NCBI GenBank assembly: GCA_902784585.1
Contig: CACZVM010000002.1
Span: 1-64,000, forward strand
DNA length: 64,000 nt
Direction of reading: 5' to 3'
From: an uncultured Bacteroidales bacterium
Lineage (GTDB): Bacteria; Bacteroidota; Bacteroidia; Bacteroidales; Paludibacteraceae
Part shown: positions 4,862-48,316 of the stretch, piece by piece
Layout: every line of letters begins with the position of its first letter
Numbering within the stretch: position 1 is the first letter of the stretch
The notes under the pieces: generated by a model
The model's input: the letters and a program-made list of their open reading frames with translations, nothing else
Told to the model about the DNA's origin: nothing
Database searches by the model: none
Translations under genes and position numbers: made by a program

Positions 4862-6781
4862 ATGGAATATAAGTATATCAGTCATATTGACTCGCCGGCA
4901 GACCTGAAGAAACTGAAAGTGGAAGAACTGCCCGAGGTATGCGCCGAACTGCGGCAATATATCATCGAGACACTGAGCAAGAACCCCGGTCATCTGGGTT
5001 CGTCGCTGGGTGCAATAGAACTGACCGTGGCCCTGCACTACGTCTTTGATACCCCCCACGACAAGCTGGTATGGGACGTAGGTCACCAGGCCTATGCCCA
5101 CAAGATACTGACCGGTCGTCGCGACCGTTTCCCCACCAACCGTCAGTTCAAAGGACTGTCGCCCTTCACCAACCCTGCGGAGAGCGAGTATGACGCCTTC
5201 ATCGCAGGGCACGCGAGCAACTCGATTTCCGCTGCGCTGGGAATCGAGATTGGAAATTCAAAATTAAAAATTAAAAATTCAAAATTATCGCAAAACGTGG
5301 TGGCCATCATAGGCGACGGAGCGATGACGGGCGGACTGGCCTTCGAGGGACTGAACAACACGTCGATGGACAAGAACAACCTGCTGATCGTGCTGAACGA
5401 CAACCACATGGCCATCGACCCGCTGAAGGGCGGTTTCACACAGTATCTGGTGGATCTGACGACCAGCCAGACCTACAACAAATGGCGCTGGCGGCTCTAC
5501 CAACTGGCGGAGAAACTGCACCTGGTGGACGAGCGCAAACGACGTGCCATGCTGCGACGCAACAACAGTCTGAAAGCCGTGTTCAGCAAGCAGCCCAGCA
5601 ACATCTTCACCGGATTGAACATCCGCTATTTCGGTCCGACAGACGGCCATGACGTAGAAGGATTGGTGCGCATACTGAGCGAGATAAAGAACCACCGCGG
5701 GCCGAAAGTGCTGCATATCATCACCAAGAAAGGCAAAGGGTATGCGCCCGCCGAGAACGACCAGACCATATGGCATGCGCCGGGAGAGTTTGACGTTGCC
5801 TCCGGCGAGCGGTTACAGGTTACGGGTGACGGGTTACGTGTTCCTCCGTTGTGGCAGGAGGTGTTCGGCGAGACGCTGCTGGAGTTGGCCAAGAAGAATG
5901 AGAAGATAGTGGGAATCACGCCGGCTATGCCCAGCGGGTGCAGCATGAGCATCATGCAGAAAGAGCTGCCCGACCGCGTCTTCGACGTAGGCATAGCCGA
6001 GGGGCACGCCGTGACATTCAGTGCCGGACTGGCCAAGGCAGGTATGATCCCCTACTGCAACATCTACTCCACCTTCCTCCAGCGTGCGTACGACAACATC
6101 GTACATGACGTGGCACTGCAGAACCTGCACGTGGTGCTCTGTATCGACCGTGCCGGCATCGTAGGCAACGACGGAGCGACACATCACGGCCTGCTGGACC
6201 TCAGCTACCTGCGGCCGATACCCAACATGCAGATATGCGCGCCGATGACGGGTGAAGACCTCCGGCAGATGCTGACACTGGCAGAGAAACTGGAAGGACC
6301 CGTGGCTATTCGCTATCCGCGTGGAAGGGTTACGGGTTACGGGTTACCGGTTACGGATGTCGAATACGGCAAGGGCGTGAAATTGAGGGACGGAAAGGAC
6401 GTGGCTGTACTGACGATCGGTAGCATCGGCAACACGATGGCGGAAGCGATAGAAGGGGTTATGGGTGATGGGTTACAGGTTACGGGTAAGAGCTTTGCGC
6501 ATTACGACATGCGGTGGCTAAAGCCCTTGGACGAAGAGATCTTACACGAAGTAGGTCAGAAATACCAAACCATCGTCACCGCCGAAGACGGCTTGATAGC
6601 CGGAGGTATGGGCAGTGCGGTGCTGGAATGGATGGCCGACCACGGCTACACGCCGCGCGTCATCCGCCTGGGCGTACACGACCAATTCGTCGAACACGGC
6701 TCCACCAAGGAATTGTATCATCTATTAAAACTTGATAAAGAAGGATTATGCGAATCGTTATTGCAGGTGCCGGTGAAGTAG
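4862..6781 (+). CDS. dxs: 1-deoxy-D-xylulose-5-phosphate synthase
   Basis: 639 aa. Condenses pyruvate and glyceraldehyde 3-phosphate using thiamine diphosphate, the first step of the MEP isoprenoid pathway; cytosolic. It shows GHLGSSLGAIELTVALHYVF, the thiamine-binding segment GDGAMTGGLAFEGLNN and NDNHMAIDP, then the transketolase central and C-terminal domains (IAEGHAVTFSAGLAKAG). I chose the ATG at 4862, preceded by AGAAGGAA, over an ATG 31 codons earlier whose extra residues (REYAHAGATPYGCAY...) come from a hairpin-rich leader. Four heptamer arrays are inserted in frame (5254-5288, 5811-5838, 6327-6354, 6456-6483), giving odd loops such as NSKLKIKNSKLS, RLQVTGDGLRV and RVTGYGLPVTD. The key motifs remain, so the enzyme is probably active. 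The 3' end overlaps trkA by 34 nt. Confidence 0.97.
   Translation: MEYKYISHIDSPADLKKLKVEELPEVCAELRQYIIETLSKNPGHLGSSLGAIELTVALHYVFDTPHDKLVWDVGHQAYAHKILTGRRDRFPTNRQFKGLSPFTNPAESEYDAFIAGHASNSISAALGIEIGNSKLKIKNSKLSQNVVAIIGDGAMTGGLAFEGLNNTSMDKNNLLIVLNDNHMAIDPLKGGFTQYLVDLTTSQTYNKWRWRLYQLAEKLHLVDERKRRAMLRRNNSLKAVFSKQPSNIFTGLNIRYFGPTDGHDVEGLVRILSEIKNHRGPKVLHIITKKGKGYAPAENDQTIWHAPGEFDVASGERLQVTGDGLRVPPLWQEVFGETLLELAKKNEKIVGITPAMPSGCSMSIMQKELPDRVFDVGIAEGHAVTFSAGLAKAGMIPYCNIYSTFLQRAYDNIVHDVALQNLHVVLCIDRAGIVGNDGATHHGLLDLSYLRPIPNMQICAPMTGEDLRQMLTLAEKLEGPVAIRYPRGRVTGYGLPVTDVEYGKGVKLRDGKDVAVLTIGSIGNTMAEAIEGVMGDGLQVTGKSFAHYDMRWLKPLDEEILHEVGQKYQTIVTAEDGLIAGGMGSAVLEWMADHGYTPRVIRLGVHDQFVEHGSTKELYHLLKLDKEGLCESLLQVPVK
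5254..5288 (+). repeat. Heptamer array, unit AAATTCA/AAATTAA, five copies, inside dxs
   Basis: Five contiguous 7-mers (AAATTCA, AAATTAA, AAATTAA, AAATTCA, AAATTAT), in frame between IGN and SQNVVAIIGDG of Dxs. Confidence 0.85.
5811..5838 (+). repeat. Heptamer array, unit GGTTACG, four copies, inside dxs
   Basis: GGTTACA, GGTTACG, GGTGACG, GGTTACG. In frame at the boundary between the first and second domains of Dxs. Confidence 0.85.
6327..6354 (+). repeat. Heptamer array, unit GGGTTAC, four copies, inside dxs
   Basis: Three perfect GGGTTAC and one CGGTTAC directly after the codons for RYPRG. Confidence 0.85.
6456..6483 (+). repeat. Heptamer array, unit GGGTTAY, four copies, inside dxs
   Basis: GGGTTAT, GGGTGAT, GGGTTAC, AGGTTAC, in the C-terminal domain of Dxs. 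Confidence 0.85.
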
Positions 6782-9529: not shown

Positions 9530-10816
9530 ATGCGTCCTTCCAAAGTCCTCTTGTTCATCTTCGCCGTGATGGCATGTCTGGCAGTCATGTGCCTGGTTCT
9601 CCCCCACCGATGGGAGGTGGGTAGTCGTACGCTGCGCTGGCCTACGCTGGGAGAAGCGATAGGAGCAGTCAGCAGTCAGCCATCAGAAGTCTGCATTCCG
9701 CCCGATACCATCGCTACAACAGATACGCTTCCGACCGTTCAGGAGAAGACCGAGGAAAAGCCGGTCGTTCCGACGGTGCGGGTGGATTCGACCACCGACA
9801 GTCGCGTCTTCCTCTCCGCCTTCTATGCCTCGCTCGCAGAGGCGAGCACACGTGCGATACGCGTGGTGCACTACGGCGACAGTCAGATAGAAGAAGATCG
9901 CATCACCACCGAGATACGCAAGCACTTGCAAGCCCGCTACGGCGGTGCGGGTGTAGGCTTGATGCCACTGGCACAGACGATCCCCAACCGATCGGTGAAG
10001 CAGCAGTTGTTCATGAGCGGACGACGGGTGGCGGCACTGCAAGGTCCGCGACGCTATATGGTCTATGCTCTCCGGCAAGACCAACGGCAGGACGGGCTAT
10101 ACGGTCCCATGGGACAAGTATGCTGGATGGCCGATAGTCTGGTACGCGGTAGCGAAGAGATCACCACCGTCTGCACCCCAACCGACGGCGCACCATACAC
10201 CCGCTGGCGTGTGCTGGCCGACACCTCGGTGCACTATACGCATCACGGCGACACGATGCACCTGCAGGGACGCGGGGCAGTCTATGGACTCTCACAAGAA
10301 AGCAACACCGGCATCATCGTAGATAACATCCCCATGCGCGGGTGTCTCGGACTGGTGTTCACCAAGATAGATGCCGGACAACTCAGCCGATTCTATAGCG
10401 AGGCTAACGTACGCCTGATCATCATGCAGTTCGGCGGCAATGCCATTCCCTTCAATGAACATCCCGGAACTATCCAAGGTATCGTGAAGGGTCTGCGCGA
10501 TCAGGTGCGTTACATAAAAGCATGTGCCCCCGAGGCCTCTATCCTCTTTGTCGGACCAAGCGATATGTTGACGCAGATAGACGGCGAATGGCAAACCTAT
10601 CCAATGGTGCCATATATGGACAGGTTGCTCCGTAAGATGGCTCTGGAGGAGGAGATAGCCTATTTCAGTCTCTACCGATGGATGGGAGGTAGCGGAAGTA
10701 TGCTACGCTGGCAGGAAGTGGGACTGGCCACCAGCGACGGCGTCCACTTCCTACGCAGCGGTGCCCGCAAAGCCGGCAATGCCATAGCAGAATGGATATT
10801 GGAAGGAAATTACTAA
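9530..10816 (+). CDS. Periplasmic SGNH/GDSL hydrolase-family protein
   Basis: 428 aa. A single N-terminal membrane segment (VLLFIFAVMACLAVMCLVLP) puts the rest in the periplasm. The SGNH blocks are visible: block I VVHYGDSQIEEDRI (nucleophile Ser, about residue 115), a block-III-like MQFGGNAIP, and block V with the DGVHF Asp/His near the C-terminus. SGNH proteins next to MBOAT proteins usually act with them in acylating a cell-envelope polymer; the substrate here is unknown. I chose the ATG at 9530 over a TTG at 9515 that overlaps trkH. A heptamer array at 9664-9686 adds the string AVSSQPSEV to the linker after the membrane segment. The next gene starts directly after the stop codon. Confidence 0.85.
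   Translation: MRPSKVLLFIFAVMACLAVMCLVLPHRWEVGSRTLRWPTLGEAIGAVSSQPSEVCIPPDTIATTDTLPTVQEKTEEKPVVPTVRVDSTTDSRVFLSAFYASLAEASTRAIRVVHYGDSQIEEDRITTEIRKHLQARYGGAGVGLMPLAQTIPNRSVKQQLFMSGRRVAALQGPRRYMVYALRQDQRQDGLYGPMGQVCWMADSLVRGSEEITTVCTPTDGAPYTRWRVLADTSVHYTHHGDTMHLQGRGAVYGLSQESNTGIIVDNIPMRGCLGLVFTKIDAGQLSRFYSEANVRLIIMQFGGNAIPFNEHPGTIQGIVKGLRDQVRYIKACAPEASILFVGPSDMLTQIDGEWQTYPMVPYMDRLLRKMALEEEIAYFSLYRWMGGSGSMLRWQEVGLATSDGVHFLRSGARKAGNAIAEWILEGNY
9664..9686 (+). repeat. Heptamer array, unit AGCAGTC, three copies, inside the SGNH gene
   Basis: AGCAGTC, AGCAGTC, AGCCATC, AG. In frame in the linker after the membrane anchor. Confidence 0.7.
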
Positions 10817-12736
10817 TTGGATTCGATTCGCTACATATTCGGGTTTAACGCAGAGAGTCCGCTGCTGTTCACTCAGTTCTATTTCTGGGCGTTCTTTGCT
10901 TTGGTGTTCGCGGGCTTCGCATTGATAATTGGAAATCAAAAATTACCAATTACCAATCACAAATTACACATGAGAAATGTGTACCTACTCTTCGTCAGTT
11001 GGTTCTTCTACTATAAGACCAGCGGACTATTCCTGCTGATACTGGCCTTCGTCACGCTCTCAGACTGGCTCATCGCCGGGCGAATCAAATCAGCAATTAC
11101 CAATCACAAATTACCAATAGCGAAGCTTCTATTGGCACTTTCAGTGACAATAGATTTGGCTCTGCTCTTCTATTTCAAGTACGCGTATTTCTTCACGAAC
11201 GTCGTCAACGAGTGGTTCGGCACAGACTTTCGGGTGTTTGATATATTCGCATACGTAGGTAACGGTTTTGCTACGGCCGGTCGTTTCTCGGTGGATACGA
11301 TTGTGCTGCCGGTGGGAATATCGTTCTATATCTTCCAAGTCATCTCCTATACTTGCGACGTGTTCCGCCAGAAGATCGAGCCGGTCAGGAACATTCTGGA
11401 TTTCGGTTTCTATGTGTCGTTCTTCCCCCAACTGGTGGCGGGTCCTATCGTGCGTGCGGAGGAGTTCATCCCCCAACTATACAAACCCTACCACTTGAGC
11501 CGCCGTTATTTTGGTCTGGCCGTGTTCTGGATCATCAACGGACTGGCGAAGAAGATCATCATGTCGGATTATCTGGCGGTGAACCTGATTGACCGTGTAT
11601 TTGACAACCCGCTGCTCTTCTCGGGCTTTGAGAACCTGTTCGCCCTCTTCGCCTACTCGCTGCAGGTGTACGCTGATTTCTCCGGCTATACAGATGTAGC
11701 CATCGGTGTTGCATTGCTGATGGGATTTTATCTGCCGATGAACTTCAACAGTCCGTACAAGTCGAAGACGCCTCAGGAGTTCTGGCGGCGCTGGCATATG
11801 TCGCTGGGCCGCTGGCTGAAGACTTATCTGTATATCCCGCTGGGCGGTAACCGGCGCATCGGCTTCGGCACCTATTTCTGGTGGTCGCTCATTGCGTTCG
11901 TCTCCGCCGCTCTCATCGGATGGTGGTGGCTGCTCATTCCGTTCGGCGTCTTCATGGCGATTGTGGCTGTTCTTAACTCCGCTCCCTTCCGAGAGAAGAT
12001 GGGAGCAGGCCGATTGAAACTGCTCTATTCGAACCTCAACTCGTTCATCACGCAGGTGCTGGGTGGGTTGTGGCACGGCGCGAGTTGGAACTTCGTGCTA
12101 TGGGGTGCGATCAACGGTGCAGGTATGATAGTTGAGAAAATCTGGCGTGAGACGGGTTGGCTCCTGCGCATGGCGTGCATGACGATGCTGACGGCCTCAC
12201 TGTTCGCCATCGACCACCTTTGGCCCCTACCCGTCTGGCGGCTCTTTGCCGTATGGGCACTCATCGTCTGGAGCGGAACAGTCATCCGCTACATCTACTG
12301 GCTGTGCACACGCAGCCGAGCCGTCAGCCGTCAGCTGTCAGTCGTCAGCAATCATCTTGCCACGGCGTGGGCCGTACTGCAGACTTTCGCCTTCATTACC
12401 TTCACGCGTCTGTTCTTCCGTTCGAGCAGTAACCTCGATCCCGAGACAGCCAATCGCGTGGCGTGGGAGACGGCAACGAACATGGTGCACCAGATAGGCG
12501 GCGCATGGAACAACAACATCATCCCTGCGTTCGTATGGGAGTACCGCTGGGTGGTGGCGATGTTCGTGCTGGGAATGGCCATTCACTGGGTACCGACAGA
12601 CTGGAAACGGCGTTATCGACTTTGGTTCAGCGCCATGCCTCTCTGGCTGATGGTAGGTGTGGTATGCCTGGCTATCCTCGTCATCTATCAGTTTGTCTCC
12701 GCAGAGATGCAACCGTTTATATATTTTCAGTTCTGA
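10817..12736 (+). CDS. MBOAT-family membrane-bound O-acyltransferase
   Basis: 639 aa, about 12 membrane helices. Family signatures are FRRWHMSLGRWLKTYLYIPLGGNR-like (positions about 11785-11850; key residues WHMSLGRW and YIPLGGN) and LWHGASWNFVLWG with the catalytic His (about residue 420). It resembles AlgI/DltB-type acyltransferases that move acyl groups across the inner membrane to envelope polymers, probably working with the preceding SGNH protein. The likely start is an unusual TTG at 10817, immediately after the SGNH stop and preceded by GGAAGGAA; the first ATG in frame comes about 50 codons later and would remove the conserved first helix. Three heptamer arrays lie in frame (10934-10968, 11094-11119, 12315-12349), all at predicted loops between helices. 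Confidence 0.9.
   Translation: MDSIRYIFGFNAESPLLFTQFYFWAFFALVFAGFALIIGNQKLPITNHKLHMRNVYLLFVSWFFYYKTSGLFLLILAFVTLSDWLIAGRIKSAITNHKLPIAKLLLALSVTIDLALLFYFKYAYFFTNVVNEWFGTDFRVFDIFAYVGNGFATAGRFSVDTIVLPVGISFYIFQVISYTCDVFRQKIEPVRNILDFGFYVSFFPQLVAGPIVRAEEFIPQLYKPYHLSRRYFGLAVFWIINGLAKKIIMSDYLAVNLIDRVFDNPLLFSGFENLFALFAYSLQVYADFSGYTDVAIGVALLMGFYLPMNFNSPYKSKTPQEFWRRWHMSLGRWLKTYLYIPLGGNRRIGFGTYFWWSLIAFVSAALIGWWWLLIPFGVFMAIVAVLNSAPFREKMGAGRLKLLYSNLNSFITQVLGGLWHGASWNFVLWGAINGAGMIVEKIWRETGWLLRMACMTMLTASLFAIDHLWPLPVWRLFAVWALIVWSGTVIRYIYWLCTRSRAVSRQLSVVSNHLATAWAVLQTFAFITFTRLFFRSSSNLDPETANRVAWETATNMVHQIGGAWNNNIIPAFVWEYRWVVAMFVLGMAIHWVPTDWKRRYRLWFSAMPLWLMVGVVCLAILVIYQFVSAEMQPFIYFQF
10934..10968 (+). repeat. Heptamer array, unit AATTACC, inside the MBOAT gene
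   Basis: AATCAAA-like start, then AATTACC, AATTACC, AATCACA, AATTACA. Translates as KLPITNHKL between helices 1 and 2. Confidence 0.8.
11094..11119 (+). repeat. Heptamer array, unit CAATTAC, inside the MBOAT gene
   Basis: CAATTAC, CAATCAC, AAATTAC, CAATA. Translates as AITNHKLPI, nearly the same peptide as the array at 10934. Confidence 0.8.
12315..12349 (+). repeat. Heptamer array, unit CGTCAGC, inside the MBOAT gene
   Basis: A degenerate first copy, then CGTCAGC, CGTCAGC, TGTCAGT, CGTCAGC. Translates as AVSRQLSVVSNH in a cytoplasmic or periplasmic loop. Confidence 0.8.
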
Positions 12737-12773: not shown

Positions 12774-13355
12774 ATGCTCATCGGTATTACAGGGGGAATA
12801 GGTAGCGGTAAGAGCGTTATCGCACAGGAGCTGGCGCGTCGCGGGTACAAGGTGTACGACAGCGATGCGGAGGCAAAGCGTATCATCGCGCAGCACCGTG
12901 AGGTGCAGGCGCATATACGTGCGCTGCTGGGTGAGCAGTCCTTCGTGGACGGCCGCTACAACACTGCCTATGTCGCCCAACGGGTGTTCGCCGACGAACA
13001 ACTGCTCCAGCAACTAAACGCCATCGTCCACCCTGCCGTCAGAGAAGAGATCTCAGCCATCAGCCGTCAGTCGTCAGGCTATTTCTTCGTAGAGAGTGCT
13101 ATCTTGCATGAAGCAGGTCTGGACCGCTTGTGCGACTGTATCATCTATGTGGATGCGCCGGAGGACGTACGCATCGCCCGTACGGTGGCGCGTGACCACT
13201 GCGAGGCGGCACAAGTGCGGGCGAGGATGAGCCATCAGCAGGGTCAGACCTGCGTCTGCCGTCAGCCGTCAGAGCAAAAGAAAACCATCGTCCTCAGGAA
13301 CGATGGCTCTCAATCGATAGAAGCTCTGGTAGATTGGCTTATTTCACAGCTTTGA
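12774..13355 (+). CDS. coaE: Dephospho-CoA kinase
   Basis: 193 aa. Phosphorylates the 3'-OH of dephospho-CoA, the last step of coenzyme A synthesis; cytosolic. It shows the P-loop GITGGIGSGKS at the N-terminus, the VYDSDAEAKRII substrate segment and FVESAILHEAG. Two short heptamer-derived stretches lie in frame (AISRQSSG about residue 95; VCRQPSEQ about 163), the second replacing part of the usual lid or C-terminal region. The 3' end overlaps the convergent nadC gene by 17 nt. Confidence 0.95.
   Translation: MLIGITGGIGSGKSVIAQELARRGYKVYDSDAEAKRIIAQHREVQAHIRALLGEQSFVDGRYNTAYVAQRVFADEQLLQQLNAIVHPAVREEISAISRQSSGYFFVESAILHEAGLDRLCDCIIYVDAPEDVRIARTVARDHCEAAQVRARMSHQQGQTCVCRQPSEQKKTIVLRNDGSQSIEALVDWLISQL
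13053..13077 (+). repeat. Heptamer array, unit TCAGCCG, inside coaE
   Basis: TCAGCCA, TCAGCCG, TCAGTCG, TCAG, in frame; gives SAISRQSSG. Confidence 0.75.
13257..13274 (+). repeat. Short heptamer array, unit GCCGTCA, inside coaE
   Basis: About two and a half copies (GCCGTCA, GCCGTCA, GAG). Short, but the same unit as at 13053 and 12315. Confidence 0.5.
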
Positions 13356-17542: not shown

Positions 17543-18946
17543 ATGCTGGAGGATTTTATCATAGGCAGGATACGCGCTGAGTTGCCGTTTGAGCCGAACA
17601 GCGAGAAAGAGGGTTTGCTACAAGCCCTCGGTCGTTTTCTGGTGTCCAGAGACGAACGCAAGGCCTTCATCCTCCGCGGTTATGCGGGTACGGGTAAGAC
17701 CAGCGTGGTGAGTGCGTTGGTACGTGCGATGGCCGGACTGAAGCAGCCCTGTGTATTATTAGCACCGACGGGCCGCGCTGCCAAGGTGCTGAGTCATTAT
17801 TCCGGAGCACCCGCCTACACCATCCATAAGTGTATCTACCGCCAGCAGCAGTTGGGCATGGAGGCCTTCAGTCTTGGTCAGAACATCCGCCGCAATGCCT
17901 TGTTCATCATAGATGAAGCATCGATGCTGAGCGGCCAGCATGACGGCAGCGGTTTCGGTAGCGGTTGTCTGCTGGATGATCTGGTTAAATACGTGTACAA
18001 CGGCATGGGGTGCAGTATGCTACTGCTGGGCGACGACGCGCAATTGCCTCCTGTGGGCAGCGTGAACAGTCCGGCACTGAATGAGGAGATTATGAGCGGC
18101 TATGAGTTGTCCATAACCGGCTATCAGCTATCGGAGGTAGCGCGTCAGGCGCTGGACAGCGGAATACTAAGCGAAGCGACGAGAATACGGAAAACCATTG
18201 GTAATAGGTCATTGGTGATTGGTGATTTAGCTATTCAGCCGAACGGTGCGGATATCATCCAAGTGCCGGGAGAGGAAGTGATCGAGACGCTGGAAGCGAG
18301 TTGGCGTGAGGCGGGTGCGGAAGAGACGCTGATCATCACGCGCAGCAATCGGATGACGAACCTATACAATCAAGGTGTGCGTGCACGGGTGCTATGGAAA
18401 GAAGATGAGTTGTCGAACGGCGATCGCGTGATGGTAAGCAAGAACAATTATTTCTGGGCGCAAGAGTACGAGGATCTGGATTTCCTTGCCAACGGCGACA
18501 TGCTGGAGATAGAACGGCTTACCAACATACACGAGATGTACGGTTTTCGGTTCGGCAAGGCCAGTCTGCGCTCAGTGGACTACAACTGGGAGATCGATGC
18601 GCTCGTCTGGCTCGACACGCTGACGACAGACAGTCCGGAGACCAACTATCAACTGCAGAAAGAGCTCTTCGCACGCATTGCGGAAGACTATCCGGAGATA
18701 CGGAACAAGAAAGAGCTGGTGAAGAAGATATACGAATCGCCCTACTACAACGCGCTGCAGATACGCTATGCGTATGCCGTGACCTGCCATAAGGCGCAAG
18801 GCGGCCAGTGGCGGCACGTGTATATCGATCCGGGCTTAACGAGTGAAGGAGTGAACGAGTTGACGAGCAGTGAGCGATTAGAATACATGCGATGGCTATA
18901 TACGGCTGTCACGCGAGCAACAGAAAAAATATTCCTTTTGCGATAA
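17543..18946 (+). CDS. RecD-like / ExoV-alpha-type DNA helicase
   Basis: 467 aa superfamily 1B helicase. Motif I is ILRGYAGTGKTSVVSALV (about residue 50), then LLAPTGRAAKVLS, motif II FIIDEASMLSG (about 130), motif III LLLGDDAQLPPVGS, and the C-terminal UvrD_C_2-type motifs YAVTCHKAQGGQWRHVYI and YTAVTRATEKIFLL. It is shorter than RecD proper and lacks RecB/RecC neighbours, so it is probably a stand-alone 5'-3' DNA helicase of the AAA_30 group common in Bacteroidetes. A heptamer array at 18197-18228 is in frame (IGNRSLVIGDLAI), in the insert between domains 1 and 2. Confidence 0.9.
   Translation: MLEDFIIGRIRAELPFEPNSEKEGLLQALGRFLVSRDERKAFILRGYAGTGKTSVVSALVRAMAGLKQPCVLLAPTGRAAKVLSHYSGAPAYTIHKCIYRQQQLGMEAFSLGQNIRRNALFIIDEASMLSGQHDGSGFGSGCLLDDLVKYVYNGMGCSMLLLGDDAQLPPVGSVNSPALNEEIMSGYELSITGYQLSEVARQALDSGILSEATRIRKTIGNRSLVIGDLAIQPNGADIIQVPGEEVIETLEASWREAGAEETLIITRSNRMTNLYNQGVRARVLWKEDELSNGDRVMVSKNNYFWAQEYEDLDFLANGDMLEIERLTNIHEMYGFRFGKASLRSVDYNWEIDALVWLDTLTTDSPETNYQLQKELFARIAEDYPEIRNKKELVKKIYESPYYNALQIRYAYAVTCHKAQGGQWRHVYIDPGLTSEGVNELTSSERLEYMRWLYTAVTRATEKIFLLR
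18197..18228 (+). repeat. Heptamer array, unit ATTGGTG, inside the RecD-like gene
   Basis: ATTGGTA, ATAGGTC, ATTGGTG, ATTGGTG, ATTT, in frame. Confidence 0.8.
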
Positions 18947-33440: not shown

Positions 33441-35024
33441 TTATTGCACTTCGGTGCCTTCCGCAGTGTATGTTTTGCCGCCGCGGAGGATATAGAGCAC
33501 GCCATCTTTGATCACTTTATTGGTGATTGGTGATTGGTGATTGGTAATTTCGTCGATGGCCTCATGCTGACGCGGGCTATTGATATGCAGACTCAGGCGG
33601 AGATCATCGGTGCGGTCGGCGTAGGTCTGACCATAGCCGGTGATGTCTTCCACCAGCGAACGGAGGATAGGATCTACCTTTATCTGTAAAATACCGGTAA
33701 GCAGGTTGAGTACTTCCGGCAGTGACAACATCGTACCACTGACTGCCTCCGCCATCATGGCATTCATATTGGTCTCCAGTGCCTCAGCCAGCGAGTCCGC
33801 CTCGGGGTGTTCCGGTTCGTTGGCCTCGCTATGCAGCAAATAGAGCGATACTACGGTGCTGCCCAAGTGGCGCTCCACAAGATCCACCTTTGCACTGTCA
33901 GTATTGTATTTGGCCACGGCTTGATCGAAGGCATCATCCAATCCCAAGAAAGAACTTCCGGGAATAGAACTGATCTTGGTGCGTGCCGTTTCCACACCGG
34001 TGTCCCACATCTCTACAGCCAGACGCGGGAGCATGTTCGCCGTATGGATACGCATCCACTCACGGCTATACGCCTCCAGCTGCGGGTAACCCGGCAGCGA
34101 GTTCAGATAATCGGTTGTCACACTTACCGTCTCGCGGTCGGCCGACAAGGTCAACCAGCGGTAAGGGCATGGATACGTGATCGGTGCACCGGAGGTTATC
34201 TCCACGATGCTGTCGCCGGTGAGACCCGTCGTGTCGCGGAAGGTAGTGATGCCATTCACATGGAAATGACCGGTCAGCACCATGTGCACACCATGACACA
34301 TCAGGCTGTCGCGCAGCGCATCGGCCTTCTGGAAGCGGCAGGCACTCTCCAGCGTACCCTGTGCATCAAAATGCTCCAGGATCTGCCAGTGGCTCATGGC
34401 AATAATGGTATTACCTTTGGCTACCGCACTGTCAGCCTGCGCCAGCACCCACTTCTGCGTCCGGGACGAGAGTACACCCGTAGCGGCGGTGTTGTTTGCG
34501 CCGTCGATAGCCAGCACCGTTAGCCCCTCTATCGGCTCTGCTACGTAACTATGCGAGTCGGGATCTTTGGCCACTGCATGCGCATACACCGAGGCATACA
34601 TCGTTTCCCAGTCGGAGTTGGTCAGATTGGCCACCTGTGTCTTCTCCGCACCGGTGTACGCATAGGCATTTCCGCCTATGTCATGATTGCCGGGGATGAC
34701 CAGCGCCTTGATGCCGGCCTGCTCCAGACGGTTCAGTTGCGCCGCCACCACCTGATGGCTGGCCCACTCGCTGTCCTTCGTCAGATCGCCCGGGATAAGC
34801 ACCACGGCAGGATGATAGGCAAGCGCAGTGTCCACCAGTGCCATAAAAGCCGGTTCACTCAGATGAATCATTTTGCGTTGGCCGTTCAGCATCTCGCCAA
34901 ACGAAAGGCTGGTGGTATCCATCAGCGACGAAGCCAGCACATGGGGGTCGGTAAAGACCATCATACGTTCTTGCGCCACCAGCATCGCAGGCAGCAAGGC
35001 CAAGAAGAGGAAGATTTTTTTCAT
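33441..35024 (-). CDS. Secreted calcineurin-like metallophosphoesterase
   Basis: 527 aa from the ATG at 35024 (MKKIFLFLALLPAMLVAQ, signal peptide). The phosphoesterase motifs are FTDPHVLA (DxH), IPGDLTKD (GD), IPGNHDIGG (GNHD), MSHWQILEHF and LTGHFHVNG (GHFH). The metal site is complete. Many members cleave phosphodiesters or phosphomonoesters; the substrate here is unknown. A heptamer array is in frame near the C-terminus (ITNHQSPITN), then comes a short tail VIKDGVLYILRGGKTYTAEG that resembles short basic/aromatic tails on other secreted Bacteroidales proteins. A terminator hairpin follows. Confidence 0.9.
   Translation of the reverse strand: MKKIFLFLALLPAMLVAQERMMVFTDPHVLASSLMDTTSLSFGEMLNGQRKMIHLSEPAFMALVDTALAYHPAVVLIPGDLTKDSEWASHQVVAAQLNRLEQAGIKALVIPGNHDIGGNAYAYTGAEKTQVANLTNSDWETMYASVYAHAVAKDPDSHSYVAEPIEGLTVLAIDGANNTAATGVLSSRTQKWVLAQADSAVAKGNTIIAMSHWQILEHFDAQGTLESACRFQKADALRDSLMCHGVHMVLTGHFHVNGITTFRDTTGLTGDSIVEITSGAPITYPCPYRWLTLSADRETVSVTTDYLNSLPGYPQLEAYSREWMRIHTANMLPRLAVEMWDTGVETARTKISSIPGSSFLGLDDAFDQAVAKYNTDSAKVDLVERHLGSTVVSLYLLHSEANEPEHPEADSLAEALETNMNAMMAEAVSGTMLSLPEVLNLLTGILQIKVDPILRSLVEDITGYGQTYADRTDDLRLSLHINSPRQHEAIDEITNHQSPITNKVIKDGVLYILRGGKTYTAEGTEVQ
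33519..33549 (-). repeat. Heptamer array, unit ATTGGTG, inside the metallophosphoesterase gene
   Basis: On the plus strand: ATTGGTG, ATTGGTG, ATTGGTG, ATTGGTA, ATT. Encodes ITNHQSPITN. Confidence 0.85.
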
Positions 35025-36274: not shown

Positions 36275-37513
36275 TTACTTATCTAACAACTTAAGCATTC
36301 CTACCAGGGCCTTCATGCACGCCCGTTCGGTGATCTGTTCGCGCAGGTGTCCCAGATGGAAGCACTCGGCCGTGGTGCCTTCGGGTGTGGCCCAGGCTAT
36401 CCACACGGTGCCTACGGGCTTCTCCGGCGTGCCTCCCGACGGCCCTGCTATGCCGCTGGTGGCTATTGCATAATCAGTGTGCAGCAGTTGGCGAACATGC
36501 TCCGCCATCACACGCACCACCTCTTCGCTCACCACTCCGTGCGCACGAATCATCTCTGCGGGTACACCCAGCACCTGCTCCTTGACGCTATTGTCGTAGC
36601 TGACAACCGAGCCCCAATAGAAGGCGGACGAACCGGCATGCCGGTTGAGCAAGGCAGCCAGTCGGCCACCGGTGCAACTCTCTGCCGTGGCGATGGTAGC
36701 GCCCCGCGCTTTGAGTCGTTCACCCACCAGCACCTCGAGCGGTTGGTCGCTGTCGGCTATCCTATAGTCGGCCGTGAGTGTCTGCAGCCGGTCCACCCAC
36801 GCTTGCATCTCTGCCTCCGTCAGGTCGCCGTACGACGACAGGCGCAGACGGATGATGCCATCTTTGGGCAGGTAGGCCAGATGCAATCCCTCCGGCATGC
36901 TGTTCTCGAAGTTCTCCAGCAAAATAGCCAAGCGGCTCTCGGGAATACCCGTCACCTGCAGAGTGCGATGCAAAATGGCTGAATGCTGAGTGCTGAATGC
37001 TGAATGCTCCAAATACGGCAGTATTTGCTCCTCCATGGCTATCTTCATCTCATAGGGAACGCCGGGCATGCAGACCAGCATCTTGTCGTCTTTGCGGAAC
37101 ACCATCAGCGGTGCACTGCCTACCCTGTTCTCCAGGATCGTTGCGTTCTCCGGCACCTGCCACTGCGTGGCTGTCAGTCGGTTCAGCACATCGGGGCGAT
37201 CGGCGTAGAGGCGCTGTATATGCAGGCGCACCTGCTCGTCCTCCACCAGACGCGTATGGAAATAGTCGCACAGCACCTGCTTGGTTATATCATCCTTGGT
37301 AGGCCCCAAGCCACCGGTGGTCAGCACCAACTCGGCACGAGAGAAGGCCTCGTCGAGTGCGGCGATGATATGCGCCCGTTCGTCATGTACGGACGTGATC
37401 TGAAACAGTTCGATCCCTTGTTCATTCAGGCGTTCTGCCATCCAGGCGGAGTTGGTATCCACCACCTGTCCGATCAGCAGTTCGTCTCCTATGGTAATTA
37501 TCTCTGCGCGCAT
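36275..37513 (-). CDS. cinA: CinA-family protein (NMN amidohydrolase type)
   Basis: 412 aa from the ATG at 37513 (MRAEIITIGDELLIGQ); seven codons further upstream come from a heptamer array. N-terminal MoaB/MogA-like domain (TTGGLGPTKDDITKQ) and C-terminal CinA domain (IATAESCTGGRLAALLNRHAGSS, YAIATSGIAGPSGG). Members deamidate nicotinamide mononucleotide and hydrolyse ADP-ribose in pyridine nucleotide salvage. A heptamer array at 36977-37010 adds EHSAFSTQHSAIL between the two parts. Confidence 0.95.
   Translation of the reverse strand: MRAEIITIGDELLIGQVVDTNSAWMAERLNEQGIELFQITSVHDERAHIIAALDEAFSRAELVLTTGGLGPTKDDITKQVLCDYFHTRLVEDEQVRLHIQRLYADRPDVLNRLTATQWQVPENATILENRVGSAPLMVFRKDDKMLVCMPGVPYEMKIAMEEQILPYLEHSAFSTQHSAILHRTLQVTGIPESRLAILLENFENSMPEGLHLAYLPKDGIIRLRLSSYGDLTEAEMQAWVDRLQTLTADYRIADSDQPLEVLVGERLKARGATIATAESCTGGRLAALLNRHAGSSAFYWGSVVSYDNSVKEQVLGVPAEMIRAHGVVSEEVVRVMAEHVRQLLHTDYAIATSGIAGPSGGTPEKPVGTVWIAWATPEGTTAECFHLGHLREQITERACMKALVGMLKLLDK
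36977..37010 (-). repeat. Heptamer array, unit TGCTGAA, inside cinA
   Basis: On the plus strand: GGCTGAA, TGCTGAG, TGCTGAA, TGCTGAA, TGCTCC. In frame. Confidence 0.85.
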
Positions 37514-37585: not shown

Positions 37586-38176
37586 TCATTTGCTCATTTG
37601 TTTGTGCCATTCCTCTGCGGTCAGGCACAGTTCATCATACCAGGCTTGTCCGAAGCGTCGTATCAGCGGTTCGCGTAGGAAGCGATACAGCGGGATATGC
37701 TGTTTCTTACCCAGCATACGGGCACAATGGCATATATCCCAACGGTGGTACTCCAGTCCCATCATCTCCCCCACTCTCGTCAGACGTATCGGATAGAGGT
37801 GACAACTAATGGGCTTGATAAATTGGTGATTGGTGATTGATGATTGGTTATAGTATTTCTCTATGAGGCAGTATGTCCAGCCGCGATGGTCGGTGCGGGC
37901 AAAGATACAATCTTTGCCATTGACGATCGAGAGCACCTGTTCGCCGGAAGGATCGAGGTAGCTGAGTCCTTGCGTTTCAAGCACCTCGCGTGCCTCTTTG
38001 GTCATCTGTGGTAAGAGTTCCGGCAACAAAGCTTTGATCTGCTTCAACTCCTCATCCGTGACGGGTGCACCCGCATCGCCCTCTATACAGCAACAACCGC
38101 GACAGGTCTCCAAATCGCAGCAGAACTCCTTCTCCAGCACATCCAGGCTGACTAATGTATTCTGTATGAGGAACAT
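37586..38176 (-). CDS. DUF3109 family protein (Cys-rich, YkgJ-like)
   Basis: 196 aa. It has an N-terminal Cys cluster (FCCDLETCRGCCCIEGDAGAP) and later Cys (DCIFA, TYCLIEKYY, ISCHLYPIR, WDICHCARM), consistent with a metal- or Fe-S-binding fold. The family is widespread in Bacteroidetes, and its function is unknown. A heptamer array in frame (QSSITNHQFI) interrupts the stretch between KYY and KPISCHLYPIR, where relatives are continuous. The ATG abuts another array. Confidence 0.92.
   Translation of the reverse strand: MFLIQNTLVSLDVLEKEFCCDLETCRGCCCIEGDAGAPVTDEELKQIKALLPELLPQMTKEAREVLETQGLSYLDPSGEQVLSIVNGKDCIFARTDHRGWTYCLIEKYYNQSSITNHQFIKPISCHLYPIRLTRVGEMMGLEYHRWDICHCARMLGKKQHIPLYRFLREPLIRRFGQAWYDELCLTAEEWHKQMSK
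37821..37851 (-). repeat. Heptamer array, unit ATTGGTG, inside the DUF3109 gene
   Basis: On the plus strand: ATTGGTG, ATTGGTG, ATTGATG, ATTGGTT, AT. In frame. Confidence 0.85.
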
Positions 38177-43752: not shown

Positions 43753-43912
43753 TTTTTTGCCATTTTTTTGAATTTTTATTCTTTTTCGAGGGGATGTCGA
43801 TAGCTATTCGCCATGCGCTCAGACGGCCTCTAAATGCCCTTTATGCCCTTTTCCTTATTTCTCGCGCACGCCACCGCACGTGTATGGGTGCACCTATCTG
43901 CACGTTCAGTAA

Positions 43913-43942
43913 CGAAAAAAAAGAGAGGCGCGATGCCTCTCC
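43913..43942 (-). terminator. Rho-independent terminator after bcp
   Basis: On the minus strand GAGAGGC, ATCGC, GCCTCTC, then a run of eight T. Confidence 0.85.
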
Positions 43943-43948
43943 TTTTTC

Positions 43949-44389
43949 TCACATGATCTGTGCGGTGTGGTTCTTGGTGTCCACCTTGTCGATGATGCGT
44001 TCCAGTATGCCGTTCTCGTCGAAGATGAAGGTCTTGCGGAGCGTACCCATCGTCACCTTGCCGTAGTTTCGTTTCTCTCCCCATGCGCCGAAGGCCTGTA
44101 GCATCTCGGTGGTAGGGTCGCTCAGCAGCGGGAAGGGCAAGTTGTATTTCTCTTTGAACTTGACGTGCGAGGCCTGGCTGTCCTTGCTCACGCCGAAGAC
44201 CTGATAGCCTTGTGAGAGTAAGGCGTGGTGGTTGTCGCGTATGTTACATGCCTCGGCGGTGCATCCCGGAGTGGAGTCCTTCGGGTAGAAATAGATGACG
44301 GTCTTCTTGCCGAGCATATCTCTGTCGGTGACCATCCTGCCCTGTTCGTCTGCCACGCTAAAAGCAGGCATTTTATCTCCTATATTCAT
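43949..44389 (-). CDS. bcp: Thioredoxin-dependent thiol peroxidase
   Basis: 146 aa peroxiredoxin that reduces hydroperoxides using thioredoxin. The peroxidatic Cys is in YFYPKDSTPGCTAEACNIRD (Cys about 43) with the resolving Cys five residues on, as in the PrxQ type. Together with rubrerythrin and sodB upstream, it forms an oxidative-stress group. A terminator follows; the start lies three bases from a heptamer array. Confidence 0.96.
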   Translation of the reverse strand: MNIGDKMPAFSVADEQGRMVTDRDMLGKKTVIYFYPKDSTPGCTAEACNIRDNHHALLSQGYQVFGVSKDSQASHVKFKEKYNLPFPLLSDPTTEMLQAFGAWGEKRNYGKVTMGTLRKTFIFDENGILERIIDKVDTKNHTAQIM

Positions 44390-44392
44390 GAG

Positions 44393-44441
44393 GGGTTATG
44401 GGTTATGGGTTACGGGTTACGGGTTATGGGTTACGGGTTAT
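44393..44441 (+). repeat. Heptamer array, unit GGGTTAT/GGGTTAC, seven copies, left flank of the four-helix-bundle gene
   Basis: GGGTTAT, GGGTTAT, GGGTTAC, GGGTTAC, GGGTTAT, GGGTTAC, GGGTTAT. The four-helix-bundle stop codon lies inside. An array of the reverse-complement unit lies at 44811-44838. Confidence 0.92.
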
Positions 44442-44751
44442 GGGATTTAAGTCTACGGGAACGGAGACCGGATAATAGCCGAGCCTCTCTATCAATTAAC
44501 TCCATAATATCATTAAAAGATTCAGGAGTAATATAATGAAGATCGCATGCGATATCTAACTGGGTCTCAACTTCCAGCAATGAGCCATAAGCAATCTCAA
44601 TGAATCGAAGTTGCTCCTTCTCAGATACGCGACCAAGTCCTTCTGCAACGTTGGAAGGAATAGATATAACTGCGCGACGCAACTGGTCGCATAGCGCATA
44701 TTGTTCTTCCTTGGGAAACGTTTGCAGCACAGCATAAACGCGAATCACCAA
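44431..44751 (-). CDS. Four-helix-bundle (S23/IVP-type) protein, start codon unclear
   Basis: From the only standard start (TTG at 44751) it encodes 106 aa. The family signature is LRRAVISIPSNVAEGLGR, with FPKEEQYALCDQ before and FIEIAYGSLLEVETQL after. Homologues begin about 15-20 residues earlier with a first helix of the form ...ELDVWxxA...; here the matching residues (RPYKTLDVYTVAKTL) are present in the same frame at 44793-44749, but no ATG, GTG or TTG precedes them. The frame stays open back through the heptamer array to 44859. At the 3' end the last residues (HNP) and the stop lie in the left array. So the gene fills the space between two inverted heptamer arrays and may have lost its start, or use a non-standard one. 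Proteins of this family form small helical oligomers and occur in rRNA intervening sequences and near retroelements; the function here is unknown. Confidence 0.78.
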   Translation of the reverse strand: MVIRVYAVLQTFPKEEQYALCDQLRRAVISIPSNVAEGLGRVSEKEQLRFIEIAYGSLLEVETQLDIACDLHYITPESFNDIMELIDREARLLSGLRSRRLKSHNP

Positions 44752-44810
44752 TGTTTTCGCAACTGTATAGACATCTAATGTCTTATATGGACGTATATAC
44801 TTCGTATTCC

Positions 44811-44838
44811 CGTAACCGGTAACCGATAACCGGTAACC
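44811..44838 (-). repeat. Heptamer array, unit GGTTACG (minus strand), four copies, right flank of the four-helix-bundle gene
   Basis: On the plus strand CGTAACC, GGTAACC, GATAACC, GGTAACC, i.e. the unit of 44393-44441 in inverted orientation. Confidence 0.9.
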
Positions 44839-44845
44839 GTTAAAA

Positions 44846-45388
44846 TTAGTAATTTTCTGCTAATAGCTGGAAGTACGCTTGAGGATGGTTGCATACAGGG
44901 CACTCTTCGGGCGCAGCCTTACCCACTACGATATGTCCGCAATTGGCGCATTGCCATATGCAGTCGCCGTCGCGTGAGAAGACCACCTTATCCTCTATGT
45001 TCTTCAGCAGCTTGCGGTAGCGTTCTTCGTGGTGTTTCTCGATGGCGCCTACTTGTTCAAATTTCTCAGCAATCTCGTCGAATCCTTCTGCGCGTGCTTC
45101 TTCGGCCATACGAGCATACATGTCGGTCCACTCGGCGTTCTCGCCTTCGGCGGCAGCCAGCAGGTTGGTCATGGTGTCGCTTACGGAGCCGCCATTCAGA
45201 TATTTGTACCACATCTTGGCGTGTTCTTTCTCGTTGTCGGCAGTCTCTTCAAATATCTTGCTTATCTGCACGAAGCCGTCTTTCTTGGCTTTTGAGGCAA
45301 AATAGGTGTACTTGTTGCGTGCCATCGACTCGCCGGCAAATGCCTCCATGAGATTCTTCTCAGTCTTTGTTCCTTTTAAGTTTTTCAT
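44846..45388 (-). CDS. rbr: Rubrerythrin
   Basis: 180 aa. Non-haem di-iron peroxidase that removes hydrogen peroxide in anaerobes. Helical di-iron domain with Glu and His ligands ([43 protein letters not shown]) and a C-terminal rubredoxin-like site (CANCGH and [11 protein letters not shown]). Full length. Flanked by sodB, the four-helix-bundle gene and bcp. Confidence 0.97.
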
Positions 45389-45410
45389 AAATATAAATTT
45401 TTATATTATT

Positions 45411-45445
45411 AAATCTTAAATCATAAATCTTAAATCATAAATCCT
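45411..45445 (-). repeat. Heptamer array, unit AAATCTT/AAATCAT, five copies, between sodB and rbr
   Basis: On the plus strand: AAATCTT, AAATCAT, AAATCTT, AAATCAT, AAATCCT. The sodB stop codon (45435-45437) lies inside the array. Confidence 0.9.
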
Positions 45446-46010
45446 CATACCTGCGGTTCACTTCTTCCCAGTTGATGATCTGCCATAGTGCTTGCAGGTG
45501 TGCCGCACGTCTATTGCGGTAGTCGATATAGTAGGCATGCTCCCATACGTCCATCGTCAGCAGTGGCCGGAGTCCTTTGGTGACGGGGTTGTTGGCATTG
45601 GTTTCCTGGGTGATGACGAGTTTGCCCTCTTTGTCGGCGCTGAGCCATACCCATCCCGAGCCGAAGAGGCTCACCCCTTTCTGTTCAAACTCTTTCTGGA
45701 AGTCCTCGAGCGAACCGAAGTCGCGGTTGATAGCCTCGAGGATAGCACCTTGGGGAGTATGATTGTCTGCGGTGACGGGTGAGAATTGTCCGAAGTACAG
45801 ATTATGGTTGAGTATCTGTCCGGCGTTGTTGAAGATGCCTCCTTCTGACTTACGTACTATCTCTTCCAGCGTCATGGCTTCCAGCTCTGTGCCCGCCACC
45901 ATTTTGTTGAGGTTGTCCACATAGGTCTGCAGGTGTTTGCCGTAGTGAAACTCTATCGTCTCGCGGCTTATCACGGGTTCCAGTGCCTCGGGTGCGTACG
46001 GAAGTGTCAT
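45435..46010 (-). CDS. sodB: Superoxide dismutase (Fe/Mn)
   Basis: 191 aa from the ATG at 46010 (MTLPYAPEALEP), the usual family start; an upstream ATG at 46034 would add eight residues and cannot be excluded. Metal ligands are visible in IEFHYGKH, GQILNHNLY, and DVWEHAYYIDY. It converts superoxide to peroxide, which rbr and bcp can then remove. It has its own promoter at 46069-46100. Confidence 0.96.
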   Translation of the reverse strand: MTLPYAPEALEPVISRETIEFHYGKHLQTYVDNLNKMVAGTELEAMTLEEIVRKSEGGIFNNAGQILNHNLYFGQFSPVTADNHTPQGAILEAINRDFGSLEDFQKEFEQKGVSLFGSGWVWLSADKEGKLVITQETNANNPVTKGLRPLLTMDVWEHAYYIDYRNRRAAHLQALWQIINWEEVNRRYEDL

Positions 46011-46522: not shown

Positions 46523-46840
46523 AATATAGTAAATGTTAGTAAAATTTTCGCCGTTTCGGGGCTAGAAAAAGCGGAAAAACTATAGTGATATGTTATTTAT
46601 ATACTATAATGCTCTAATCATCAGCCACCTCGCAAATGGTCACAAAATCCGAGTCATTTTTGGCTTGGATTTTTCTTTTTTAGGTCATTTGCTCAGAGCA
46701 TCAGAAGAATCGGGTTTCCGGGTAATCTGCTAATCTGCCCAAATCAGACTGTTTTTTCGGTCTGATTGTTCCAATACACACGCACGATGGAAGGGAAAAA
46801 CAGGTTCAAATAGTATATAATTGACTGAGATAATCAGATT

Positions 46841-46906
46841 AATCACCTACTAATAACCTACTAATCACCTACTAATAACCTACTAATCACCTACTAATGT
46901 CCTATT
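46841..46906 (+). repeat. Tandem 11-bp repeat, six units, alternating two forms
   Basis: AATCACCTACT, AATAACCTACT, AATCACCTACT, AATAACCTACT, AATCACCTACT, AATGTCCTATT. The alternation gives a 22-bp higher period. The first seven bases equal the heptamer AATCACC used in arrays elsewhere. Confidence 0.92.
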
Positions 46907-47101: not shown

Positions 47102-48316
47102 ATGAAACGCAGAATTCTCCTTGTAGTGGCCATGCTGGTGATGGCGTTGGCACTAAGTGCAAAGACCTATCAAGTGACAGCCAACAAACTCAATGTGCGC
47201 AATGCTCCGGAGAGCGGTGCCGTGATCGGTTCGTTGACCCTTGGAACGGAAGTGGAAGTAGTCAGCATCAACAAAGGTTGGGCAGAGATCACCTACAAAG
47301 GCAAGAAAGCCTATGTGTCCGCACAATTTCTCTCGCCCGTGAAGAAAGCGGCTGCAACGAAGGACACGGCCAAGAATGCGGCGAATGACAAGTCGAATGC
47401 TAAGAACGCGAAAGATAAGAACGCAAAAGATAAGAATGCAAAAGATAAGAATGCAAAAGATAAGAACGCCAAGAACGCGAACAAGGCAAATGCCAAGAAT
47501 GATAAGTCCGGGAAGAACGCTAAGAAAGACACAAAGAAGGACATTAAGACGGATGGCAACGAGATTAACAACGTGACTGATCCGATCATCGCGGGCTTCC
47601 ATATGTCGTGGGATATGCTCTGGGAGGGCCGTAATGTGTATCGTCGCGAAGTTGATGAATATGGCAAGAAGAGCGGTTGGAGTAAAGCAAAAATGGGTGC
47701 CAACGGCGATGAGATATTCGGTTTCTCGATTGGTCTTGGCATGGAATATAATGGCATCGTCCATCGTACGCCCAAGGCGAATATCATGGTAGGTTTCCGC
47801 ACGGGTGTGTATTACGACTGGTACGGTAGCCTCAAGCACAGCATACCTCTGTATGTTGACCGTTCGGTTCCAGCACGCTGGTCCATCCATTCGTTCACCA
47901 TACCACTCCAACCTACGGTCTCCTTTGAATGGCGAACCAAATCGGGCCTGCCTATGGGCTTTGGATTCTACACCGGTCCGATCTTCGAACCGTATTTTGC
48001 ATTCGACGTGATTCAACTTGACAAAAGCGGTTTTACATTCGTCAACTACATCACCGGTCACGCCATTACACTCTCAGGTGAGGGGATTGGGTCCGGAGTA
48101 GAGTACCCCGATCGTTGTGGCGTATTCAGTTGCCTCTGGGGCACCGGTGTATGGCTGCAAATCAGCAAGATACGTTTCTTGGTATCTACGGACTGGGAGA
48201 TAGACAACTACCCGTTGGCTCACGGAGGTAAGCTGTCCTCAGGAAAGATCGAGCCCCACGTGGACGGACATCTGAACCGGTTTATTACTCTCGGTTTCTC
48301 CTATGTATTTCATTGA
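47102..48316 (+). CDS. SH3-domain protein with Lys/Asn/Ala/Asp repeat linker and barrel-like C-terminus
   Basis: 404 aa from the ATG at 47102 (MKRRILLVVAMLVMALALSA, signal peptide); an ATG at 47093 is also possible. Residues about 20-80 are a bacterial SH3 domain (YQVTANKLNVRNAPESGAVI). Residues about 95-155 are a low-complexity linker, with KDKNA repeated four times (15-bp DNA repeat at about 47410-47470). The rest, about 250 residues, resembles an outer-membrane beta-barrel of the porin-family type (FGFSIGLGMEYNGIVH, ending FITLGFSYVFH with a terminal aromatic, as barrels do). Likely an outer-membrane protein whose SH3 part reaches the wall. The linker is strongly basic. Confidence 0.85.
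   Translation: MKRRILLVVAMLVMALALSAKTYQVTANKLNVRNAPESGAVIGSLTLGTEVEVVSINKGWAEITYKGKKAYVSAQFLSPVKKAAATKDTAKNAANDKSNAKNAKDKNAKDKNAKDKNAKDKNAKNANKANAKNDKSGKNAKKDTKKDIKTDGNEINNVTDPIIAGFHMSWDMLWEGRNVYRREVDEYGKKSGWSKAKMGANGDEIFGFSIGLGMEYNGIVHRTPKANIMVGFRTGVYYDWYGSLKHSIPLYVDRSVPARWSIHSFTIPLQPTVSFEWRTKSGLPMGFGFYTGPIFEPYFAFDVIQLDKSGFTFVNYITGHAITLSGEGIGSGVEYPDRCGVFSCLWGTGVWLQISKIRFLVSTDWEIDNYPLAHGGKLSSGKIEPHVDGHLNRFITLGFSYVFH
47410..47470 (+). repeat. 15-bp coding repeat (KDKNA)
   Basis: Four units of AAAGATAAGAAYGCA-like sequence inside the SH3-protein linker; in frame and multiple of three, unlike the heptamer arrays. Confidence 0.85.

Follow-up and report, generated by a model that had tools for sequence, protein, structure and literature searches.

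Four-helix-bundle genes between inverted tandem heptamer arrays in bacterial genomes: a probable class of mobile elements

Organization of the locus

The window analyzed here is the whole stretch of 64,000 nucleotides at the start of contig C2 of an uncultured Bacteroidales draft genome (1.63 Mb, 79% complete), and a short cassette in it separates two protein genes. The features of the locus are given below, the names of the two neighbouring genes being putative and following an earlier note on this DNA, made from the sequence alone.

43949..44389, minus strand: bcp, the downstream neighbour
44393..44444, plus strand: left array, seven GGGTTAY units (44393-44441) and one partial unit
44431..44784, minus strand: four-helix-bundle gene (FHB, PF05635/TIGR02436), domain match 44470-44784, stop codon 44431-44433
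44812..44839, plus strand: right array, four RTAACCG units, extended to 44843 by TRF
44846..45388, minus strand: rubrerythrin gene (rbr), the upstream neighbour

From their sequences, the neighbours in the window are putatively bcp, rubrerythrin and superoxide dismutase. The left array lies 3 bp from the start codon of bcp and the right array 6 bp from the stop codon of rbr, and the cassette fills the space between these two codons. The seven GGGTTAY units on the left are where the earlier note had placed them, and none of 100 shuffles matched this array. The note had also described the right array as four units of the exact reverse complement at 44811-44838; the four units were recovered one base further on, and the reverse complement of RTAACCG is CGGTTAY, which differs from GGGTTAY at one of the seven positions. 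Left and right array carry one heptamer in inverted orientation, without being exact reverse complements of each other. When the cassette was folded as RNA, the left and right arrays paired (z -5.66 against 100 shuffles). The site lies between two protein genes and not inside a 23S rRNA gene, and no Rfam rRNA match at gathering score was obtained at 43800-45500.

The sequence between the arrays is one S23/IVP-type four-helix-bundle gene, as had been proposed. The ORF encodes a full PF05635/TIGR02436 protein (E 1.1e-34 and 7.2e-32), with 119 bits for PF05635, the IVP family, against a cut-off of 33.8. Its stop codon is within the left array and its frame runs open into the right array, again as described before, with no ATG, GTG or TTG ahead of the domain. 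An in-frame ATG precedes the domain in 112 of 114 relatives, and the two genes lacking it are the window copy (locus L001, 44393-44843) and L113. Genome G035 encodes a protein 94% identical to the window FHB, behind a rubrerythrin gene, with the same GGGTTAY arrays and with a start codon. The window copy may be decayed or may use an unusual start.

No catalytic domain was recognised in the FHB protein in Pfam or NCBIfam, and neither a nuclease nor a transposase or reverse transcriptase is encoded in the cassette. The net charge of FHB proteins has a median of 0 and their pI a median of 6.6, and with such a charge the binding of DNA or RNA is not obvious. The PDB relatives 2gsc and 2rld, found by sequence, have five chains per entry, in agreement with the pentameric state of this family. 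We know of no established role for PF05635-family genes outside rRNA. FHB-family genes are present in at least 48 of the 61 genomes of the genus, with up to ten per genome among the matches listed.

FHB loci of the source genome and scoring of flanks

The source draft genome has four PF05635 matches, each located between inverted arrays of its own unit:

L001: the window cassette, GGGTTAY arrays
L002: TTAAGAA/TTAAAAA arrays
L003: on contig C15, ATTGGTN arrays
L004: weak family member, a longer protein with a TIGR04258 four-helix suffix domain, octamer arrays of CTAGT type

The likeness of flanks was expressed as an inverted score, for which the 150 bp upstream were aligned locally with the downstream 150 bp in reverse complement and the best alignment was taken; a cut-off of at least 24 was applied. 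For L001 to L004 the scores are 42, 38, 51 and 18 when flanks are taken from the domain ends, and 40, 38, 21 and 34 when they are taken from the start and stop codons. The codon-based score of L003 drops because its array overlaps the stop codon, and the domain-end score of L004 is low because its ORF continues beyond the domain; in one measure or the other, all four loci score 34 or more. Start/stop-codon flanks underlie the larger counts given below, which are conservative to that extent. The arrays of L004, whose unit is nearly palindromic, match in both the inverted (34) and the direct (46) orientation.

Distribution of inverted flanks across taxa

The genus set holds 114 FHB loci among the matches listed, from 44 genomes of the 61-genome search (33 automatic loci and 81 matches in 80 fetched stretches); matches close to the end of a contig, fragmentary matches and most of the weakest ones were left out. 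Matched inverted flanks were found in 69 of these 114 loci and in 11 of 257 control ORFs of the same sequences and the window, the control ORFs being drawn from a simple ORF finder so that some are probably not genes. The corresponding figures are 5 of 143 for control ORFs of 360-600 nt, 2 of 49 for the ORFs of the window and 1 of 23 for rubrerythrin-sized ORFs in rubrerythrin loci. In direct orientation the cut-off is reached by 21/114 FHB loci and 10/257 control ORFs. The 45 FHB loci which miss the inverted cut-off include 9 with direct similarity and 33 with a periodic array on at least one side.

The enrichment, which the earlier note had suggested looking for, is present in other taxa also. 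A scan of named genomes gave a multi-phylum set of 80 loci kept from 586 confirmed ones, one of them too short to score, and here 53 of 79 are at or above the cut-off in inverted and 17 of 79 in direct orientation. By record title the set covers Bacteroidota, Verrucomicrobia, Fibrobacter, Patescibacteria and Cloacimonadota along with Desulfosarcina, Nitrospira, Acidobacteria and Thiobacillus. A plasmid set was made from 16 of the 22 records, 15 of the 16 being cyanobacterial (20 of the 22 by name); 11 of its 16 FHB loci, two of them near-duplicates, have inverted flanks and one more has direct arrays.

Among the 122 cassettes of the two large sets that are over the cut-off, the clearest period is 7 in 61, 14 in 17, 8 in 16 and another value in 13, and it is unclear in 15. 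Polarity is conserved in these cassettes, the upstream arm having more G than C in 102 of 122 and more C than G in 15. Many arrays of the genus hold mini-hairpins with the frame AGACCG-N-CTNANA (FHB flanks of L006, L008, L018, L019, L065 and L066), whose inner stems vary in sequence yet pair (CCTTCGG, TCCTTCGGA, CACCTTTGGTG, CGGCAAAGCCG), and this suggests that structure is kept in them.

The nearest relative of known context is the Avd protein of diversity-generating retroelements (DGR), which belongs to a homologous fold family. A PF22296 search of 296 genomes gave 30 loci. Unlike the FHB loci, the best 19 of these 30 (L224-L242) have no case of inverted flanks (0/19), and such flanks are present in 9 of the 10 scorable cases among the lower-scoring L243-L253. 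Ten of the 30 proteins were checked with NCBIfam: in the first group three of five pass the Avd cut-off and two stand at 62 bits, and in the second all five are TIGR02436. A YxDD reading frame lies beside six of nine inspected Avd loci of the first group. The window protein stays below the Avd cut-offs (NF033474, 31.1 bits against 80; PF22296 (bAvd), 28.4 against 40), and no PF00078 match to a reverse transcriptase was found in the source draft genome. Six Avd sequences are basic (pI 9.2-10.2), whereas the FHB proteins are neutral. With this difference and with inverted arrays in 0/19 Avd loci, an Avd-like role is not favoured for FHB; the kinship with Avd that had been pointed out stands as a homologous fold family and does not extend to Avd/DGR surroundings.

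Correspondence of repeat unit and protein

All pairs of the 114 loci were compared by aligning one locus's upstream flank with its partner's downstream flank; descent of the locus does not make these positions homologous. For pairs without homologous neighbouring ORFs, a score of at least 26 was reached by 57 of 135 pairs of at least 60% identity and by 56 of 5274 pairs below 40%, and the wrong-orientation control for the former pairs gave 17 of 135. In a matrix permutation on all pairs, which are not independent, the observed correlation was reached in 0 of 300 cases. As far as comparison of sequences goes, the array unit co-varies with the FHB protein even between loci whose neighbouring genes are unrelated.

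Occupied, empty and alternative junctions

The genes rbr and bcp are co-directional and within 500 bp of each other in 3 of 30 rubrerythrin loci, and these three represent three states. The window has the cassette, G044 (rbr 92% identical) has no space between the genes, its contig ending within bcp, and G027 (rbr 94%) has an array without a gene. The array of G027 resembles the FHB flanks of its own genome (score 74, against a mean of 18 and a maximum of 57 for other genomes). The suggestion that strains with bcp next to rbr and no cassette should be sought was thus borne out by G044, with G027 carrying the array only.

Similar junctions were found on cyanobacterial plasmids. In Anabaena sp. 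90 (L257) cas6 and cas4 are separated by an FHB gene, where Nostoc UHCC 0302 (74% identity) has only 23 bp; Dolichospermum UHCC 0315A was considered as a clean empty site at this junction and rejected, as it has 245 bp of other sequence there (99.3% identity, 55% of the query). Between nrdB and nrdA an FHB gene on the opposite strand is present in Nostoc edaphicum and absent in Calothrix NIES-4105 (85% identity). A three-gene operon of Nostoc plasmids has bare junctions in L273, L275, L277 and L278 (91.7-94.6% identity to L265); its first junction contains an FHB cassette in L272, L274 and L276, and in L265 a different FHB with a different unit occupies the second junction.

The FHB genes of L257, L258 and L261 occupy the cas6-cas4 junction or that of cas10/cmr2 with cmr3. 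In PMC10910872 the 23S rRNA IVP is named in the legend to a figure on CRISPR-linked proteins, perhaps owing to insertions of this type.

Gene-less arrays and elements

At a score of 40 the window holds 19 period-7 arrays, the two of the cassette included. Ten arrays nearly fill gaps of 28-52 bp between co-directional genes and twelve are inside ORFs called by a simple gene finder. The positions are as follows.

6327..6356, plus strand: gene-less GGGTTAC array inside a called ORF, with diverged copies at 5811-5842 and 6456-6483
33519..33549, plus strand: gene-less ATTGGTG array (the unit of L003 on contig C15)
18197-18227, 27144-27182, 37822-37848, 38777-38818: other gene-less ATTGGTG arrays
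5254-5287, 5811-5842, 6327-6356, 9664-9695, 10941-10967, 12319-12349, 13053-13077, 18197-18227, 33519-33549, 36978-37008, 37822-37848: arrays inside ORFs

Arrays seem to enter or to grow in coding sequence too, and by eye the orphan arrays of the window follow no strict orientation with respect to transcription. Three tandem copies of ATTGGTN gave 142 matches in the source genome and are present in 34 of the 61 genus genomes. Such arrays of GGGTTAN are present in 15 of the 61, and among the loci examined only the window and G035 have a cassette with this unit.

Four units were picked by eye from the multi-phylum set and their threefold repeats were counted in six genomes including that of the window; the matches overlap, so the arrays are fewer. 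GGGAATN gave 77 matches in its cognate genome, Xanthomonas dyei, 2 in Deefgea and none in the other four. GTGAATN gave 26 in Oryzomonas (cognate), 7 in the source genome and none in the other four, and GGGAGTN gave 23 in Deefgea (cognate), 16 in Xanthomonas and none in the other four. The prediction failed for one unit of the four, GGGACTN, with no match in its predicted cognate Faecalibacter and 9 in Deefgea. The inverted score of the FHB locus is above the cut-off in Oryzomonas (38) and below it in Xanthomonas (19), Deefgea (18) and Faecalibacter (10, direct 107), and by eye the X. dyei gene is flanked by GGGAAT-type units in spite of its score. Close inverted pairs without a gene-sized gap were also found, 64 bp apart in Xanthomonas and 39 bp apart in Oryzomonas.

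A same-genome ranking of 81 orphan arrays appeared strong at first and was mostly reproduced by a reversed-sequence control. After correction by this control, a strong match to FHB flanks is seen in 10 of 78 own-genome comparisons and in 93 of 3354 other-genome comparisons, a modest excess (p 0.002 for the mean excess).

One gene-less element was found to interrupt an FHB gene. The gene, intact in L272 and L274, is split in L276 by 182 bp (980-1161), which consist of a heptamer array, a spacer and an inverted array and belong to the same family as the cassette's own ends. Two further copies of this element on other Nostoc plasmids have both boundaries in common with it. Of 72,556 plasmid records searched by blastn, 43 contain similar sequence, at 100 places in all; 28 of the 43 have a place that covers at least 80% of the 182-bp query, and the organism names are cyanobacterial. 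In comparison with L272 and L274 the target-site duplication at the L276 element is at most 1 bp, and the GATAAA at its right end is present in these target copies as well; no consistent duplication was found at the plasmid junctions and the L276 element. Versions without the gene, as supposed earlier, do occur and are bounded by the same inverted heptamers.

Comparison with known systems and literature

The REP/RAYT (REPIN) system is similar in that a small gene lies between inverted short repeats, single or paired repeats without the gene occur elsewhere, and protein and repeat are matched. Inverted repeat copies flanking the gene and dispersed gene-less copies were both found for FHB, the latter with the failure of one unit in four. 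RAYT belongs to the Y1 (HUH) transposases and a REP is a short palindrome, whereas the cassette has a four-helix bundle and tandem-array ends, and no Y1_Tnp match was found in the source genome (a 79% complete draft). The REP/RAYT-like arrangement proposed in the earlier note is therefore retained for the anatomy and the gene-less copies; FHB itself was rejected as a RAYT, the gene being PF05635.

The intervening sequence (IVS) of 23S rRNA with its IVP has in common with the cassette a PF05635 protein and an ORF within a structure closed by inverted ends. The cassette differs in lying between protein genes, at a place with no Rfam rRNA match (43800-45500), and to our knowledge the IVS has not been described with tandem heptamer ends or with gene-less families. 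The 182-bp element of L276 resembles a MITE in its inverted ends, lack of a gene and many dispersed relatives, and it differs in its tandem-heptamer ends, in a duplication of at most 1 bp and in a presumed autonomous partner without a transposase. The class lacks a defining feature of each of RAYT, rRNA IVS and DGR, though it is REP/RAYT-like in its working.

Heptamer repeats already in print (cyanobacterial STRR, GGGNATC of Xanthomonas and Nostoc, and TAACTGA), in the parts of those papers available, are like the arrays here in being dispersed, mainly between co-directional genes, with some inverted pairs. The accessible text of PMC4692102 describes GGGNATC-type arrays in Xanthomonas and Nostoc, counts 70 and 75 convergent pairs for two genomes of Xanthomonas, reports that the arrays are generally not associated with mobile elements and that their role is still to be elucidated, and contains neither "four helix" nor "S23". 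That of PMC4679880 deals with TAACTGA arrays from Beggiatoaceae, cyanobacteria and Bacteroidetes, for which it reports no evident transmission mechanism, and contains neither "four helix" nor "23S". In PMC2670836, as far as available, the 7-bp STRRs of cyanobacteria are of no known function. No link between heptamer arrays and four-helix-bundle genes was found in the open-access literature as accessible, and other papers or preprints may hold one.

Interpretation

The best explanation, to which we assign a probability of roughly 0.7, is a widespread class of small mobile elements that end in inverted tandem arrays, have one FHB protein dedicated to them and give rise to gene-less derivatives. 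It rests on features read from sequence, namely the anatomy, the enrichment, the match of left and right units, the co-variation of unit and protein, the occupied and empty junctions and the gene-less element inside an FHB gene; from these we infer movement and a part of FHB in it. The ends of such an element would be inverted arrays of a short tandem unit, mostly of 7 bp but also of 8 bp or longer, the G-rich strand being as a rule the one upstream of the FHB gene, which would be the sole gene and matched to the unit. The gene-less derivatives would comprise MITE-like elements of array, spacer and inverted array, and single arrays between co-directional genes.

Lacking a nuclease, transposase or reverse transcriptase of its own, the element would depend on borrowed catalysis. 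The FHB protein most likely acts in recognition of folded repeats and in recruitment of host enzymes, the recruitment being conjectural. The FHB oligomer might recognise the repeats of its own element where single-stranded DNA or RNA has folded and the arms close a stem, and might attract host enzymes of replication or repair, which would place the element in gene junctions by copying or joining. Arrays could then lengthen by slippage or template switching, and solo arrays could be remnants or partial copies. The protein may be what makes the arrays move; the earlier note had linked it to their movement or copying.

A mobile class of this type would join FHB genes and dispersed heptamer arrays in one system, in which a protein has its cognate repeat, the gene is present in some copies and missing from others, and junctions are either occupied or empty. 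If mobile, the element does so with no transposase, recombinase or reverse transcriptase of its own that is recognised as such, and it would explain the FHB genes inside unrelated operons such as cas6-cas4, cmr2-cmr3 and nrdB-nrdA. A bolder version, which we put forward only tentatively and hold to be nearer doubtful than probable, is that FHB proteins drive transposition or copying without a known nuclease or polymerase of their own, each reading its own unit, and that the heptamer repeats of cyanobacteria, Xanthomonas, Beggiatoaceae and Bacteroidetes and the 23S rRNA IVS are all footprints of this process.

It is also conceivable, though unlikely, that FHB is an RNA- or DNA-binding regulator whose operators are the arrays, the flanking pair serving autoregulation and the scattered arrays forming a regulon. 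Co-variation of unit and protein would fit this, as would the location of arrays mainly between co-directional genes; most such Xanthomonas repeats are transcribed according to the available text of PMC4692102, and translational regulation is proposed in that of PMC4679880. However, autoregulation needs no inverted arrays on both sides, and it does not lead one to expect an FHB gene on the opposite strand inside the nrdB-nrdA operon, FHB genes in two different junctions of one Nostoc operon, or a gene-less array pair inside FHB coding sequence. The same portion of PMC4692102 reports that no role in gene regulation was found.

Alternatively, the array-bounded elements may be moved by an unrelated host transposase, for example of the Y1/IS200-IS605 type, with FHB as passenger or stabiliser, which we regard as improbable to much the same degree. 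The nested element of L276, with no duplication above 1 bp and next to a GATAAA that the two other copies likewise have at that end, speaks for it, as this may recall IS200/IS605 targeting. Against it, Y1_Tnp, the only transposase family searched, is absent from 16 of the 22 FHB-bearing genomes of at least 90% completeness (among the matches listed) and from the source genome too, and a passenger FHB would leave the co-variation of unit and protein unexplained.

Origin of the arrays everywhere by polymerase slippage, with FHB genes flanked by chance or through intergenic tolerance, is very improbable: period-7 arrays are common (19 in the window) and slippage is cited as a hypothesis in the part of PMC4692102 available, but it accounts neither for matched inverted pairs (controls 11/257, Avd 0/19) nor for cassette-free junctions and the common unit of related FHB genes in unrelated neighbourhoods. 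The controls exclude slippage as the full explanation, and it may set the length of arrays.

Other repeats in the window

At 46840-46898 the window also has a tandem repeat of 22 bp (TAATCACCTACTAATAACCTAC), and at 47401-47469 a repeat of 15 bp inside an ORF.
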